DNA of 39,065 nucleotides, taken from the NCBI RefSeq assembly GCF_009711445.1, contig NZ_SMMC01000196.1:1-39065 (forward strand). The letters are read 5' to 3'. Below, piece after piece: positions 30,238 to 37,528 of this stretch (position 1 is the first letter of the stretch; the number at the start of each line of letters is the position of its first letter). The notes below the pieces were generated by a model. It did not search any database. It had not been told where the DNA came from and worked only from the letters and a program-made list of their open reading frames with translations. The stretch comes from Curvivirga aplysinae. Its GTDB lineage: Bacteria > Pseudomonadota > Alphaproteobacteria > UBA8366 > Aestuariispiraceae. Made by a program: the position numbers and the translations under genes.

Positions 30238-30313
30238 GCTCGGATAGCTCAGTTGGTAGAGCAGCGGATTGAAAATCCGCGTGTCGGCAGTTCAAATCTG
30301 CCTCCGAGCACCA
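30238..30313 (+). tRNA. tRNA-Phe (GAA)
   Basis: A 76-nt cloverleaf: acceptor GCTCGGA/TCCGAGC, D-arm TAGCTCAGTTGGTAGAGCA, anticodon loop TTGAAAA with GAA at 30271-30273, T-arm GTTCAAATC, discriminator A and encoded CCA. Its 3' end lies 40 bp from a tyrosine-integrase gene, so it is the probable integration target. Confidence 0.97.
30289..30313 (+). other. Inferred left attachment site in the tRNA-Phe 3' end
   Basis: Phage-type tyrosine integrases usually recombine at the T-arm/acceptor end of tRNA genes. The integrase gene directly adjoins this tRNA and reads toward it. The matching repeat (attR) was not found up to 39065, so the exact core is unknown. Confidence 0.4.
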
Positions 30314-30352
30314 TTTACCCCATCTCTACACTCCGCAGAAAACCTTATTTAT

Positions 30353-31474
30353 TCACGATCCTTTCTTGTGTTTAGAATTTTGTCCTACTAAATTGTAGAC
30401 ACCCCCTGTAGACACCCCTTGCTTTTCTTCTACTCTCTGCATTGCGATTTTTGCCCGTGAAATTTGCTGCACTGATTGTGTATAATGACGTACCATATCG
30501 TCAGTTTTGTGACCTGTGATAGCCTTGATTTCTTCATTACTGCATCCGGCCTCTGCTAATGCAGAAGCAGCATTACGGCGCAGACCATGGAACGTACAGC
30601 CCTTAATCCTTCCAGCCTTTTCATTGGTTTCAAGATTTAGCTTTGCAAGCTGTCTGTTCCAGTTTGCGCGAAAGCCGTCTGTACTATACGGCTTTCCATC
30701 TTCGCGGCAGATAAAATAAATAGAGTTCGTCGGTGCTTCCTGCAAAATTTGCATTAGCAGAGGGTGGCAAGGGATATAAATCTCTGTGCCTGTTTTCTCC
30801 TGAATTACCTTGATTAGTCCGTCCTTAAGGCGTTCGTCTGTACGGGTCATATTTAAGCAATCACCCTGTCGTTGACCTGTGAACAGGGCCACGAAAAATG
30901 CAATCTTCATCATAGGATTGTCGCACCCTTCAACAAAGGCTTTCATTTCTCCTTCTGTCCATGCTCTATTACCGCCGCCTTTAGCCTTAAGAGAAGATAC
31001 GCCTTTTGCTGGATTGTCTGCTCTCAGACCTAAATCAATAGCCATTTCACCCAATACGCTTAACATACGGACGATTTTGTTTGCCTTAGATGGGCTATCG
31101 GAAAAGTGATTGCGCAGCTTGATAACATCGGCGCGGGACATGCTGGCAAAGGGCTTGTTCTTGGCTTTGGTTTTTTTAAGGATATCGCAGGAAGCTCTAT
31201 AATCCTTTTGGGTAGAAGGTCTCTTTTCCTTAAATTCTGGCGACCCTAAATACTGTTCAATTAGCCAACCAAAGGATTCACGAACTGTAAGCTCTCTCTT
31301 AACCTCAAAAGATTCTTTGATCTTGTTGTAATGGGCGTACCATTCAACAGATAGGTATTCACCACGGATATCTACAAGATGCGTTTTGCCGTCAACCTTC
31401 TTGCGGTATTGCGTGTAGATACGCTCGTTGCGTTTCCATATCTTGAGGTTAGGAAGTCTTGTGAGTTTCATCAA
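30353..31474 (-). CDS. int: Tyrosine-type site-specific recombinase (phage integrase)
   Basis: This 373-residue protein has a SAM-like core-binding domain (about 62-155) and a catalytic domain with Arg202 in FTGQRQGDCL, His296-x2-Arg299 in FHGLRRNAAS, His322 in ITGHKTDD and the nucleophile Tyr331 in VRHYTQ. Its N-terminal region (about 1-55) is an arm-type DNA-binding portion. It would integrate and excise the element at tRNA-Phe, just beyond its 3' end. Its ATG overlaps the excisionase-like gene by 4 bp, so the two are translated together as the last genes of the leftward operon. Confidence 0.95.
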   Translation of the reverse strand: MMKLTRLPNLKIWKRNERIYTQYRKKVDGKTHLVDIRGEYLSVEWYAHYNKIKESFEVKRELTVRESFGWLIEQYLGSPEFKEKRPSTQKDYRASCDILKKTKAKNKPFASMSRADVIKLRNHFSDSPSKANKIVRMLSVLGEMAIDLGLRADNPAKGVSSLKAKGGGNRAWTEGEMKAFVEGCDNPMMKIAFFVALFTGQRQGDCLNMTRTDERLKDGLIKVIQEKTGTEIYIPCHPLLMQILQEAPTNSIYFICREDGKPYSTDGFRANWNRQLAKLNLETNEKAGRIKGCTFHGLRRNAASALAEAGCSNEEIKAITGHKTDDMVRHYTQSVQQISRAKIAMQRVEEKQGVSTGGVYNLVGQNSKHKKGS

Positions 31475-32032: not shown

Positions 32033-32599
32033 TTAATTAAGTAACGCTGCTGCATGCCTCATTAGTCCTGCGGCAATATCTGTTGGCAGTCCTTCGCGGG
32101 AAATTTTTAATATTTGTTCGGCTTTGTAAGATCGGTAAGCTTGATTGGCCTCTTCTGGAGTGGAAAAGGTTCCGATGTGCTTATGGTTTTCTTGTCTGAC
32201 TTTACAGCGGGCTAGATATTTTCCAGTCTTTCTGCATTGAAAAACACCAGAGCCGAAACGACCTTTTGCAGAACCTTTATCTCCAACTAAAAGGTTGAGT
32301 TCTCCGCTAACAAAACAACATGTATCAGGACTGTAAATTTTATTGCCCGGATACAGGATGTCTTTATCTAGTTGCTTGCCTTGCCAGTCTTGAAACATCA
32401 TCCAAGAACGAAAATTCATAAAATATTTCCAGTCTGGATGCACAGAACAATCTCGATAAGTTGGATACTTATTGGTCTTAGCATAGCAGCGTCTTATCAT
32501 TTCTCTCCAACGCTCATAGAAAGGGCAAAAAATACGGTCATTTCTTGCACCAATGCAGACTTTGTATGTAGCGTTATTGATACCAAATCCATATATCAT
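32033..32599 (-). CDS. HNH-like/AP2-domain phage DNA-binding protein
   Basis: The 188 residues split into two parts. Residues about 20-105 (FYERWREMIRRCYAKTNKYPTY, CSVHPDWKYFMNFRSWM, DKDILYPGNKIYSPDTCCFV) follow the layout of phage HNH-type proteins, although a full histidine triad is not clear. Residues about 115-165 (SGVFQCRKTGKYLARCKVRQ, HIGTFSTPEEANQAYRSYK) form an AP2/ERF-like DNA-binding domain. Such proteins are often homing-type or accessory genes in phages. An AAAGGAAAG ribosome site precedes the ATG. Two hairpins separate it from the DUF1367 gene, so its expression may be set separately. Confidence 0.75.
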   Translation of the reverse strand: MIYGFGINNATYKVCIGARNDRIFCPFYERWREMIRRCYAKTNKYPTYRDCSVHPDWKYFMNFRSWMMFQDWQGKQLDKDILYPGNKIYSPDTCCFVSGELNLLVGDKGSAKGRFGSGVFQCRKTGKYLARCKVRQENHKHIGTFSTPEEANQAYRSYKAEQILKISREGLPTDIAAGLMRHAAALLN

Positions 32600-32699: not shown

Positions 32700-33134
32700 C
32701 TAATAACTAAGACATAAATCCTCTACTTCACGTCTCAAGTCACTTTCGGGCATACCCTTTAAAATGTGGTTTACAGTTATTTGGATAACTCCATCGTAAA
32801 ACTGGTTGAATGCTAACTGGTCCATGCTGGCAAAGCTGATAGATTTGTATTCTCTATGCTCATTGCCCTTTGCATCCTTAAAAATGTCATAATGACGTGT
32901 TGCGTCTTTGAATAACTGGTGGACCTGCTTTTGCGTCCAGCCGTTATCCGTGTTTTCAGCGATGATCTTTATCAAAGCCCAATACTTGCGATGATGCTTG
33001 CCGTTACGTGGCTTGCTTACTTGTGCCTTGATAACATCACCCATCTTGATACCTTTGAGGGCCTCTGCTGTGTTATCATCCGCAGGGCGAAAGCCGCCTG
33101 TTGCTGTCTTGGTAAAAAATAACTCAGTAGCCAT
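32700..33134 (-). CDS. DUF1367-family phage protein
   Basis: Starting at ATG 33134 (eight codons inside the open frame, with GAGGA 8 bp ahead), the protein has 144 residues opening MATELFFTKTATGGFRPADD. GDVIKAQVSKPRNGKHHRKYWAL and YKSISFASMDQLAFNQFYDG match DUF1367, a phage early-region family near recombination genes. Biochemical function is unknown. Its start overlaps the HNH-like gene by 11 bp, indicating coupling. Confidence 0.85.
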   Translation of the reverse strand: MATELFFTKTATGGFRPADDNTAEALKGIKMGDVIKAQVSKPRNGKHHRKYWALIKIIAENTDNGWTQKQVHQLFKDATRHYDIFKDAKGNEHREYKSISFASMDQLAFNQFYDGVIQITVNHILKGMPESDLRREVEDLCLSY

Positions 33135-33435
33135 TTTTCCATTCCTCATATTTCTCACGGGCCAAAGCGCGAAATGCTGCTCTCAAAACATCGTCCGGCG
33201 CATGCTCACGAAGGAAAGAGACCTCACCTTGCTGGTGCATCTGCACATGAAAGCAATGCATAATGGGGAGGGCTTCATTGTCTGGTGACTTAATACCTTT
33301 ACCCATGGTCCCGATATGGGCGGGGTCTACTGCTTCATATTCATTTCCGCGCCGCCCTGATAGGATGCATGGCATATCACGCAATTCGTTTAGGTACTTG
33401 CGATCTCGGATGATAGGTTTCTTGAGCATGTTCAT
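33124..33435 (-). CDS. HNH-like phage protein (DUF968/Ref-like)
   Basis: In this 103-residue protein, YLNELRDMPCILSG, VDPAHIGTMGKGIKSPDNEALP and HCFHVQMHQQG follow the spacing of phage DUF968/Ref-type HNH folds, with His in AHIG, Asn in DNEALP and the later HxxxxH. One of the usual zinc cysteines is not seen. Relatives include RecA-dependent nucleases, which would suit the adjoining annealase and SSB genes; activity here is inferred. It overlaps its neighbours on both sides (4 and 11 bp). Confidence 0.7.
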   Translation of the reverse strand: MNMLKKPIIRDRKYLNELRDMPCILSGRRGNEYEAVDPAHIGTMGKGIKSPDNEALPIMHCFHVQMHQQGEVSFLREHAPDDVLRAAFRALAREKYEEWKNGY

Positions 33436-33637: not shown

Positions 33638-34126
33638 TCAAAATGGTATTTCGTCGTCTAAGTCAGGTGATCCAGCATAACCACCACCAGCATTACCGCC
33701 GAAGCCGCCAGCATCGTTGCTATAACTGCCGAAGCCGCCAGCATCGTTGCCACCGTATCCGCTTTGGTCACTATCACCACCCTTGCTATCAAGCATGGTC
33801 ATGTTGCCACCGAAACCAGAAACAACTACCTCAGTTGAATAACGGTCAGCGCCGCTTTGGTCCTGCCATTTGCGGGTTTGCAACTTGCCCTCAATAAGAA
33901 CTTTTGCGCCTTTCTTGAGGTAGCGTTCGCAAACATCTGCAGTCTTTCCGAAGATAACGACACGGTGCCATTCAGTCCGATCTTGGCTGTTGCCGTCACG
34001 GTCTTTCCACCGCTCTGTGGTGGCAATGCGAAGGCTTGCAACCTTATCGCCGTTTTGGGTGTTCCGTATCTCAGGATCAGCACCCAAATTGCCGACTAGA
34101 ATTACTTTGTTTAAGCTTCCTGACAT
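33638..34126 (-). CDS. ssb: Single-stranded DNA-binding protein (phage-encoded)
   Basis: The 162 residues begin with the OB-fold [20 protein letters not shown], with [12 protein letters not shown] and [23 protein letters not shown] glycine-rich linker (about 113-152) follows, then the acidic tip DLDDEIPF that recruits partner proteins. It lies directly downstream of the Bet annealase with overlapping stop/start (TAATG), so the two are coupled and should work together in strand annealing. The linker DNA contains a 30-bp-period repeat. Confidence 0.96.
33698..33750 (-). repeat. Two-copy 30-bp-period repeat within the ssb linker
   Basis: A 23-bp segment at 33698-33720 recurs identically at 33728-33750. 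It encodes two NDAGGFG units of the glycine-rich linker. In-frame repeats of this kind vary in copy number and change only linker length. Confidence 0.85.
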
Positions 34127-35055
34127 TATGCTGCTTCCTTAAGTTTTGCGCGTAGTTTCTCTAATTCAGCTTTTAGCGCTAATGCATCACCCTTTTGAAC
34201 TGCCCAAAATTGACGTAAGCCTTCACGGTTCTGCTCTAAGAACATTTCCAACAATTGTGATGTTGCGAGCTGGTTGGCGTGATCTAAAAATTTGTCAGCA
34301 AATTCTCCCTCGCTGATCATCTGAATGCCCTCTGTCATTTCAAAAATCACTGGCAACATGTCTTTACCAACAAGCTTAAGTCGCTCTTCCCTTTGAAAGC
34401 TTTCCACACGCTCTGTTGCGGTCATTTCTGCTTGCAAGCGGTCCATTTCTTCTGCTGCATATGTGCCAGAAATATCCTCAGGCCATCCTTTGCGAAGAGC
34501 TTGCGCCTCTGCACATTTAGCGATCATGATCTTAGGCATACGAACCCAATTATCTTTAGCAATTGTATATTCGCCTGTTGGACCTTTTCGACCCGTTTCA
34601 TTTTCCGCCCAAATTTCTTTAAGGGGTACGTATTCCTCCCAATAAGCAGAACAGGTAATTTTGTGCCATTCGCCATGGGAAAATTTAAAGACAGACACAA
34701 CGGCCTTTTCTATGCCAAGTGGGTTTGTCTTATCCTTTAAGGATTCATCAAAGATAAGTCGCGGCTCTTCATCATCAGGTCGATAGTTACCGGAACGATT
34801 TGCGATTGCGCGATACCCGTCGATACCAACGATAAATGTTGCCTGACGTTTACTTGGTTTGTCTTTATTGAAAACTAAGCAATGAATTTGCTTGCGAAAA
34901 GGGTCAAGGCCAGCATTGCGGCAAAGCTCCATGAACATATCAAATTCATCTGCATTTGTATCCTTTGCGACGGTGTTTCGGATCAAGCTTAGCTGCTGAT
35001 TAGATAAGCCGTTAACAGGAGAAGAAAACTTCTCAATAGTAGCTATTTGGTTCAT
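34126..35055 (-). CDS. bet: Phage single-strand annealing protein, Bet/RecT type
   Basis: The 309-residue protein matches the lambda Bet group: [101 protein letters not shown] and AAEEMDR. It anneals complementary single strands during phage recombination. Lambda Bet works with exonuclease Exo; no exonuclease is recognised in the window, though Gp157 upstream and SSB downstream form the usual module. GGAGAGATTAAA precedes the ATG; one base separates it from the Gp157 stop. Confidence 0.94.
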
Positions 35056-35056
35056 T

Positions 35057-35545
35057 TTAATCTCTCCGAATTTGGATTGTCATACCACCGTTTGAAAGGG
35101 TAGCGCCTTTTACATCACCCTCATTGAGAGCTTTTAGCAGCGCCTTCTTATCCAGCTTTGGTGGCTGTGCTTTGAAGAATGTAGAGGGGATATCCGCCTC
35201 TTCGGTGATAATCACCTTCTTAGGCATCCTCTTTGTTGAAATGGTACAGGTCGGCCCCATGACCTTTGATAAATCTGCCAACTCCATAGCCTGTAGAATT
35301 ACCGTTTTGAGAGTGTCCGACTTTACCTTTAAGCGACCAGAGCGTCTTTTAAGGGCATCGCCTTTCTCGTTTGCAGCAACTGCCAGCATGTCCAATTCAT
35401 CCACTTCATCGACTAGGGCTTGTATAGCTTCCTCGAAGTTTGTTTCTGACTGAATAGCAAGCTGGATACTTTCGGCATCCCACTCTTGAGCCTCTAATTG
35501 CTCGCGTAAGCTTCTTACTGCCTTAAGTTCTTTATGAAGGCTCAT
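35057..35545 (-). CDS. Siphovirus Gp157-family protein
   Basis: From ATG 35545, with ribosome site GGAGGTG, the protein has 162 residues. It has a long helical first half (LREQLEAQEWDAESIQ, DEVDELDMLAVAANEKGDALKRRSG) and a second half with TISTKRMPKKVIITEEADIP, FFKAQPPKLDKKALLKALNEG and VKGATLSNGGMTIQIRRD, as in Gp157-type phage proteins linked to recombination modules and sometimes to phage resistance. The open frame extends upstream to 35626 but there coincides with a different coupled small gene. Its ATG overlaps that gene's stop. Confidence 0.87.
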   Translation of the reverse strand: MSLHKELKAVRSLREQLEAQEWDAESIQLAIQSETNFEEAIQALVDEVDELDMLAVAANEKGDALKRRSGRLKVKSDTLKTVILQAMELADLSKVMGPTCTISTKRMPKKVIITEEADIPSTFFKAQPPKLDKKALLKALNEGDVKGATLSNGGMTIQIRRD

Positions 35546-35685
35546 ATCCACACCTCCGCAATTACGATCAAAGACACACCCAACACTGCGAAGAAGATCG
35601 CTTGCCCTAATGTGATGCGCTCCCATAAATTTCGAGGCTTCACATGCATGTTATAGACGTTGGTGATAGTGCGTGCGGGTTTCAT
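35542..35685 (-). CDS. 47-residue single-pass membrane protein in the phage early operon
   Basis: This reading frame runs from ATG 35685 to TGA 35542. The N-terminus MKPARTITNVYNMHVKPRN is basic; residues about 27-45 (QAIFFAVLGVSLIVIAEVW) form one hydrophobic helix, so it would be a small inner-membrane protein with a cytosolic N-terminus by the positive-inside rule. Its ATG overlaps the preceding gene's stop by 4 bp and its TGA overlaps the Gp157 ATG by 3 bp, which makes a true, translationally coupled gene likely. I recognise no family. Confidence 0.65.
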   Translation of the reverse strand: MKPARTITNVYNMHVKPRNLWERITLGQAIFFAVLGVSLIVIAEVWI

Positions 35686-36058: not shown

Positions 36059-36259
36059 TTACTCTGCAGCCAATGCGAAAGCATCGGTAATGTCGATCTT
36101 TTCGCCTGTTAAGCAATTCAAGGTGAAACGGTATTCTTGACCTTTAAGCTGGTCTACTTCCTCGAAGTAACGAGTAGTCGCAGCTTCTAAATCACTTACC
36201 ATTGCTTCTTCGAATGTGAATGTGTCGTTTGACGGGATATTCCAAACATTGATCAGCAT
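36059..36259 (-). CDS. First gene of the leftward phage operon, unknown small protein
   Basis: 66 residues, acidic (LINVWNIPSNDTFTFEEAMV, FEEVDQLKGQEYRFTLNCLT), with an almost ideal ribosome site AAGGAGGAAACAC. It is the first gene after the operator-bearing promoter at 36285-36313. No helix-turn-helix is visible, so it is not an obvious repressor. Being the first early gene, an anti-host or antitermination role is conceivable but unsupported. Confidence 0.75.
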   Translation of the reverse strand: MLINVWNIPSNDTFTFEEAMVSDLEAATTRYFEEVDQLKGQEYRFTLNCLTGEKIDITDAFALAAE

Positions 36260-36284
36260 GTGTTTCCTCCTTGGTTATGAGGTA

Positions 36285-36313
36285 ACTATAATGTGGGAAA
36301 AATCCCACGTCAA
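36285..36313 (-). promoter_or_regulatory. Leftward early promoter of the phage operon
   Basis: On the minus strand TTGACG (36313-36308) and TATAGT (36290-36285) are separated by exactly 17 bp, a near-consensus sigma70 promoter 25 bp ahead of the first gene. The spacer is filled by a perfect operator palindrome. Confidence 0.85.
36293..36308. promoter_or_regulatory. Operator palindrome 1 inside the promoter spacer
   Basis: GTGGGA-AAAA-TCCCAC is a perfect dyad lying between the -35 and -10 boxes. A protein bound here would block RNA polymerase. A near copy lies 29 bp away. Confidence 0.75.
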
Positions 36314-36321
36314 GTTAAAAA

Positions 36322-36337
36322 GAGGGAAAAATCCCAC
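36322..36337. promoter_or_regulatory. Operator palindrome 2 (one mismatch)
   Basis: GAGGGA-AAAA-TCCCAC differs from operator 1 by one base (T to A at the second position). The centres are 29 bp apart, about three helical turns, which suits cooperative binding of two dimers and possible control of the rightward genes. Confidence 0.7.
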
Positions 36338-36966: not shown

Positions 36967-37266
36967 ATGTCAGAACAAAAACTAGATTATGAGCTTACTG
37001 ACGAAGAAATTAGAGTCGCTACAGAGTATTTGTATGACTTAGGCTGGATCGAGCGTGACTGTGAAGTTTGTCAAAGTCGTGAGTGGGTGATGGGAAGGAA
37101 GCTACTTGGTATGCTACCCACCGACGGAAAAGGATCGTTTTCCGTGACCCCCGATTACGCCTATGTAGCGATTATTTGCGAACATTGTGGCAATACAAAA
37201 ATGGCAAACGCAAATGTTTTGGGATTTCGCGACTTTAGTGAGAGTGAGGAGGGTGGCAATGAATAA
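36967..37266 (+). CDS. Zinc-ribbon phage protein, unknown
   Basis: This 99-residue protein has two CxxC pairs, in RDCEVCQSREW and IICEHCGNTKM, spaced about 40 residues apart, the pattern of a zinc ribbon. An N-terminal acidic helix (YELTDEEIRVATEYLYDLGW) precedes them. Its last codons overlap the start of the coiled-coil membrane gene by 8 bp, so the two are coupled. Similar pairs occur in prophages but no function is known to me. Confidence 0.75.
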   Translation: MSEQKLDYELTDEEIRVATEYLYDLGWIERDCEVCQSREWVMGRKLLGMLPTDGKGSFSVTPDYAYVAIICEHCGNTKMANANVLGFRDFSESEEGGNE

Positions 37267-37528
37267 TGATGTTATCGACCTTATGGACTTTCGCAAAGAA
37301 AAAGGTAATAATAATGAAAACCCACCTATGGGCGGTGATGGAGGCGATGGCATGGAAGCTAGAGTTGCGAAGCTTGAGACGCACGTGGAGCATATTCGCG
37401 AAGACATTGGAGAGCTAAAATCTGATGTTAAGGAACTGCGTAAAACAATTGATAGCAGATCGGCTTGGTTAATCGGCCTAGTCGTGGTGTCTATTTTGGT
37501 TCCTATAGCTTTAAAATATTGGGGTTAG
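37259..37528 (+). CDS. Small coiled-coil protein with C-terminal membrane helix (XhlA-like)
   Basis: From ATG 37259 (GGAGGGTGGCA ahead) 89 residues: a flexible Asn/Gly-rich stretch, a coiled coil (EARVAKLETHVEHIREDIGE, then LKSDVKELRKTI), and a C-terminal hydrophobic helix (SAWLIGLVVVSILVPIALKY). This is the layout of hemolysin XhlA and similar phage proteins, some linked to lysis; no holin or endolysin is seen nearby. The same layout is used by unrelated small membrane proteins. A strong terminator lies 22 bp downstream. Confidence 0.7.
   Translation: MNNDVIDLMDFRKEKGNNNENPPMGGDGGDGMEARVAKLETHVEHIREDIGELKSDVKELRKTIDSRSAWLIGLVVVSILVPIALKYWG

Follow-up and report, generated by a model that had tools for sequence, protein, structure and literature searches.

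Putative left operators and early promoter of a lambda-type immunity region in a prophage of Curvivirga aplysinae

Described switches and the locus in C. aplysinae

In phage lambda, the left operon ends in int and the attachment site, PL and cI are read in one direction and cro in the other, and the operators form two clusters, where the early promoters enclose operators, OR2 separates the -35 box of PR from that of PRM, OR3 covers PRM, and the cI ATG stands at the place of a leaderless start. In switches of this type the operators are common to CI and Cro. The operators of phage 434 have the form ACAA-N6-TTGT. Other phages pair a non-proteolytic CI with a separate antirepressor, and passages of PMC10432266 state that repressors without a peptidase domain lose their activity through factors that the phage encodes at another place.

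The stretch of DNA analysed here (the window, 39,065 nucleotides) is the entire contig C28 of Curvivirga aplysinae, and ends inside a prophage located at tRNA-Phe. In its predicted layout the prophage resembles lambda in each of the lambda features of the first sentence above, while its operator sequence, the two sites recognised at OL and the spacings (29 bp at OL, 23 and 36 bp at OR) set it apart, as do a CI without an S24 domain in its 210 assembled residues and the presence of a gene for a Rha/KilAC antirepressor-like protein, a candidate counterpart of the separate antirepressors. Among solved structures the 434 repressor is the nearest to the HTH domain of CI, yet the helix-3 residues differ by eye in alignments, and the prophage has GGGA-N4-TCCC in place of the 434 operator. 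To judge from the sequence, the palindromes and promoter in the window are very probably OL1/OL2 and PL of a lambda-type immunity region controlled by the CI-like HTH protein encoded on contig C24 (Table 1). They would belong to what looks like an ordinary and complete lambda-type switch in a new prophage, with two sites at PL and three at PR/PRM.

Table 1. Predicted features of the immunity region and left operon on the window (C28) and contig C24.
Feature	Contig	Position	Strand	Basis or remark
attL core, 52 bp	window	30266..30317	+	over 3' part of tRNA-Phe (30238-30313); identical at C24:3237-3288 (-)
Tyrosine integrase	window	30353..31474	-	PF00589, 1.3e-19; gene adjoins tRNA-Phe
NinB/Orf-like recombination mediator	window	32700..33158	-	family match
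SSB	window	33638..34126	-	domain/family match
RecT-like annealing protein	window	34126..35055	-	domain/family match
Gp157/Gam-like end-protection protein	window	35057..35626	-	domain/family match
First leftward gene, 66 aa	window	36059..36259	-	without recognised family
Shine-Dalgarno-like AAGGAGG	window	36266..36272	-	sequence; precedes first leftward gene
PL -10 hexamer TATAGT	window	36285..36290	-	consensus match, predicted
OL1, putative operator GTGGGA-AAAA-TCCCAC, GTGGGAAAAATCCCAC	window	36293..36308	.	in PL; top matrix score 23.5 (matrix built with OL1 among its sites)
PL -35 hexamer TTGACG	window	36308..36313	-	consensus match, predicted
OL2, putative operator GAGGGA-AAAA-TCCCAC, GAGGGAAAAATCCCAC	window	36322..36337	.	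centre-to-centre distance to OL1 29 bp
Rha + KilAC (ANT) antirepressor-like protein	C24	13206-13952	-	8.7e-31 and 4.5e-17
Cro-like ORF, 75 aa	C24	32209-32436	-	diverges from cI
OR1, putative operator GTGGGATTTTTCCCTC	C24	32469-32484		complement of OL2
OR2, putative operator ATGGGATTTTTCTCAC	C24	32492-32507
OR3, putative operator AGGGGATATTTCCCAC	C24	32528-32543
cI-like HTH_3 ORF	C24	from 32544	+	open at contig end after 210 residues

The control regions on the two contigs

The first-pass annotation had reported a near-consensus promoter, TTGACG-N17-TATAGT, with an operator exactly filling its spacer and a near-copy 29 bp away, and as an observation this is confirmed for both the palindromes and the promoter hexamers. 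PL, whose 17-nt spacer reads TGGGATTTTTCCCACAT on the minus strand, agrees with the consensus at 10 of 12 positions and has its predicted start near 36278; it is a consensus match only, in a window where a promoter scan returned 15 promoter-like sites against 9.3 (sd 3.4) in shuffles. The filling of the spacer is near rather than exact, as 15 bases of the 16-bp OL1 palindrome lie within it, its first base doubles as the final position of the -35 hexamer, and 2 nt are left before the -10 hexamer. The near-copy is OL2, separated from OL1 by 13 bp edge to edge. Downstream of PL, AAGGAGG is followed by an ATG on the minus strand, and the putative left operon (recT, SSB, gam-like, ninB-like, int, attL) extends to the left of this operator cluster, the second of the prophage. 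To the right of OL, a 113-aa ORF at 37187-37528 (+), on the strand opposite to the left operon, scores weakly against the PHROG families for hemolysin (phrog_1193) and holin/antiholin.

The exact motif GTGGGAN4TCCCAC occurs a single time in the 3.56-Mb assembly. The two contigs hold four exact GGGAN4TCCC sites, compared with a mean of 0.63 and a maximum of 3 in 300 first-order simulations, and none of the 300 simulated sets had two such sites within 60 bp of each other; together with the single exact motif in the assembly, this makes chance an unlikely origin of the pair. Genome-wide, GGGAW4TCCC is found at 8 sites and the reversed control pattern at 4, with half of the 8 lying in the two control regions of the prophage. 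When two mismatches are allowed, the motif has 70 places against 58 for the control, so that only its tight form is informative. Among 43 genomes of the host's order, GTGGGAN4TCCCAC is present in two, C. aplysinae and one with a further site, and no such prophage is evident in close relatives of the host.

The first-pass annotation had also placed the controller either beyond the right edge of the window or among its uncharacterised proteins. The 52-bp att core is identical on the opposite strand of C24, and its orientation on the two contigs is as expected for one element, which argues that C24 read backwards carries the remainder of the prophage and has attR at the end away from C28. The genes on C24 include those for replication, terminase, portal, major head and head-closure/connector proteins; a GapR-like DNA-binding protein is also encoded there (L001:152-415 (-), PF10073, 6.3e-24). 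The compared ends of C24 and C28 do not overlap, which leaves a gap between them, and we infer the join. It is on this att-linked contig, beyond the right edge, that the HTH_3 repressor gene is found.

Within the C. aplysinae genome, GGGAAAAATCCC matches at three places, and the third lies 0.7 kb short of the C24 end. Three operator copies are evident there at 32469-32543, flanked by the divergent Cro-like and cI-like ORFs, and the 16 bp of OR1 are those of OL2 on the opposite strand. With a matrix of five sites, these five score 18.2-23.5, being the very sites from which the matrix was built, and nothing else in 72 kb exceeds 12.9. The predicted PR (TTGACA-N17-CATTCT) has OR1 in its spacer and a poor -10, CATTCT, the operator lying at an offset of 10 from the start of the -35 hexamer compared with 7 at PL. 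The predicted PRM (TTGGCA-N17-GATATT) is a consensus match only, with the cI ATG 7 nt behind it, a placement consistent with a leaderless cI mRNA, whose predicted start is at or beside the A of that ATG. OR2 occupies the whole stretch separating the two -35 boxes, and OR3 lies over the -10 of PRM.

The repressor and the predicted switch

Residues 14-68 of CI match HTH_3 (PF01381) at 1.1e-8, with 35.4 bits against a curated cut-off of 23. The match to the 434 repressor structure 2r63 has an E of 2.1e-6 over query residues 8-71, and a profile of 16 relatives matches the same structure at 2.9e-10. Residues 89-186 have no Pfam match, and BLASTP between the two halves of CI finds no similarity; PHROGs gives phrog_8 at 1.6e-15 and two stretches matching phrog_4, which suggests a possible second HTH. 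An AlphaFold2 model of the 210 residues, calculated without an alignment, is poor (mean pLDDT 51.6, helices only) and carries no weight here. No S24 peptidase domain is recognised in the 210 assembled residues, and the ORF runs off the contig.

Three S24 matches exist in the assembly, to an intact LexA-like ORF of 231 aa, an ORF of 108 aa and an intact repressor-like ORF of 217 aa. They were considered as the missing piece of CI, and none fits as its fragment. The 217-aa ORF is on contig C177 (L225), about 6.6 kb from an exact GGGATATTTCCC at C177:8293. Given what passages of PMC10432266 say about repressors without a peptidase domain, the Rha/KilAC protein is a candidate inducer that may inactivate CI here, a reading that fails if the gap between the contigs hides an S24 domain.

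The switch model draws on five matching sites confined to two control regions in 72 kb, on the divergent HTH_3 repressor and Cro-like ORF around three of them, on the placement of operators in the spacers of PL and PR alike, and on the att core common to C24 and C28. Dimers of CI would bind GTGGGA-N4-TCCCAC, and a dimer on OL1 would sit between the -35 and the -10 and exclude RNA polymerase, so that the leftward recombination operon stays off during lysogeny, with OL2, 29 bp off, probably aiding through cooperative binding. On the right, CI on OR1 inside PR would silence cro and the rightward operon, while CI would also occupy OR2 between the -35 boxes and, on OR3 over the -10 of PRM, limit its own synthesis. 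Induction would proceed via an antirepressor instead of RecA-driven cleavage. The suggestion of the first-pass annotation that the leftward operon is under a repressor switch gains support from the three further operator copies upstream of the HTH_3 gene on C24.

No close relative of this prophage was evident in the searches made with RecT, the 66-aa first gene and the portal among phages, viral contigs and genomes of the host's family. The search with RecT in the genomic and viral contig collections gave no confirmed close relative, the 66-aa protein had no relatives in phages and was found in one of 14 family genomes, that of C. aplysinae itself, and the portal search of the viral contig collection gave no close relative. 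Distant portals are found in 215 phage records, the 25 listed of them being at about 36-42%, and tblastn of CI in phages returned 135 weak records below 60% identity, none of them covering 80% of the query.

Recurrence of the operator in distant phages

We approached conservation from the operator and from the protein. Viral contigs were searched for pairs of GGGA-W4-TCCC with a gap of 6-36, giving 67 stretches, and genomic contigs with a slightly stricter form of the pair (AY after the first site), giving 58. A CI-like HTH was detected by tblastn in 23 of these 125 stretches (15 viral, 8 genomic), a set that is partly redundant, including five Komagataeibacter copies and, by eye, the close pairs L053/L110 and L044/L079. 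The other 102 have no recognisable CI relative, and many of them resemble simple repeats by eye; a reversed-pattern control, small in itself, gave 17 stretches and no CI match. Of the 23 CI loci, 21 have an exact site no more than 200 bp upstream of the HTH, and 12 of the 23 have an operator pair downstream of cI, spaced by 29 bp in eight, 30 bp in two, 28 bp in one and 20 bp in one; at L087, one of the 30-bp loci, a third site follows 20 bp further. In all 12, the second or third site is preceded at 7-8 bp, on the cI strand, by the start of a -35-like hexamer, in a scan that allowed offsets of 5-11 and several -35 variants, some of the -10 boxes being poor. PL in the window, at 29 bp and offset 7, fits this recurrent geometry. 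The search of the genome and related elements that the first-pass annotation had proposed finds the exact motif once in the assembly, and the core and the 29-bp spacing again in distant phages; a palindrome not conserved in related elements would have refuted its reading.

The likeness extends to the right region. Locus L052 has sites at -73/-50/-14 from the cI start, the same as in the C. aplysinae prophage, and L108 at -50/-14; the Komagataeibacter prophages (L118, L139, L144, L147, L148) and the IMG/VR loci L044, L052, L079, L085, L087 and others carry the same core at similar distances before cI, and the core-flanking bases vary. A divergently placed ORF matches the Cro-like ORF in 5 of the 23 CI loci. 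Several of the Komagataeibacter and IMG/VR CI proteins are longer and look by eye to bear S24, whereas C. aplysinae, L052, L108 and L122 have CI proteins that are short or show no S24 part. Apart from these loci, the 43.6-kb phage contig IMGVR_UViG_3300021958_000157 (L035, L060, L062, L077) has eight listed pairs of GGGGAATATTCCCC-type palindromes at several places, all 39 bp end to end and reminiscent of distributed repressor or stoperator sites, and similar pairs occur in L063, L095 and L096.

Starting from the protein, a profile of seven HTH domains led to 18 viral loci, eight of which were dropped because the operator-first set included their contigs; the search profile (A2) itself contained six repressors chosen by operator. 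Upstream of the ten new viral loci, GGGA ranks first among all 256 half-sites possible for a 4-bp gap (8 of 10 loci, 16 sites; the next reaches 2 of 10), five of the ten (L175, L178, L179, L180, L187) belonging by eye to one subfamily. Among 29 chromosomal loci of the host's class (30 genome loci minus L193, which is C. aplysinae itself), GGGA is upstream in only three, two of them near-identical, and is tied with four other half-sites; L199, the best relative in the host's family, is without the motif upstream. The difference between 8 of 10 and 3 of 29 indicates that phage repressors of the CI type, and not all HTH relatives, are accompanied by the operator. A literature search with most subscription journals outside its scope found no description of a shared GGGA-N4-TCCC operator code, and passages of PMC11893012, PMC9437464 and PMC10432266 do not name the operator.

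These results bear on other readings of the palindromes. Alphaproteobacterial LexA recognises the box GTTC-N7-GTTC. Host regulators control some phage promoters, LexA being mentioned, in passages of PMC9437464, and the palindromes could be sites of LexA or another chromosomal factor borrowed by the phage; we regard this as very unlikely, given the difference from the LexA box, the single exact motif in the genome, and the fact that the four GGGAW4TCCC sites outside the prophage equal the count of the reversed control. Less probable still is that the inverted repeats are not protein sites but work as hairpins, RNA or single-stranded, in the manner of terminators: a terminator scan does list 36308-36293 as terminator-like, but the window has 4 such sites against 3.6 in shuffles, this one precedes the expected start of PL and has no T run directly behind it on that strand, and its sister copies are in the divergent promoter region of C24.

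The Cro-like protein might instead be the main binder of the OL sites, since its ORF adjoins OR1 and lambda-type switches share operators between the two proteins. We give this as little credence as the borrowing of a host site: neither Pfam nor NCBIfam recognises an HTH family in the 75-aa protein, and the motif follows CI-type HTH genes even at loci without a Cro match. Control by CI remains the preferred reading of OL1/OL2.

We tentatively raise a wider scenario, which we think possible though rather doubtful: a widespread, portable immunity module with the GGGA-N4-TCCC code, the 29-bp left geometry and one HTH type, in which the C-terminal half is exchanged between S24 self-cleaving and non-cleaving forms, induction would then answer no longer to DNA damage but to an antirepressor, Rha/KilAC in this case, and the core-flanking bases set immunity specificity.

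For this prophage, an orphan operator has become a complete predicted switch, with its repressor located on another contig. The more interesting part, beyond the switch itself, is that diverse repressors share one operator core and a left operator with a fixed 29-bp spacing. The rule of GGGA-N4-TCCC sites 29 bp apart in TTG-N20-TANNNT-like promoters can be used to find immunity regions in uncultured phages and to match repressors with their operators. If the repressor end is exchangeable, these phages would offer a natural series on how the induction trigger evolves under fixed DNA recognition.
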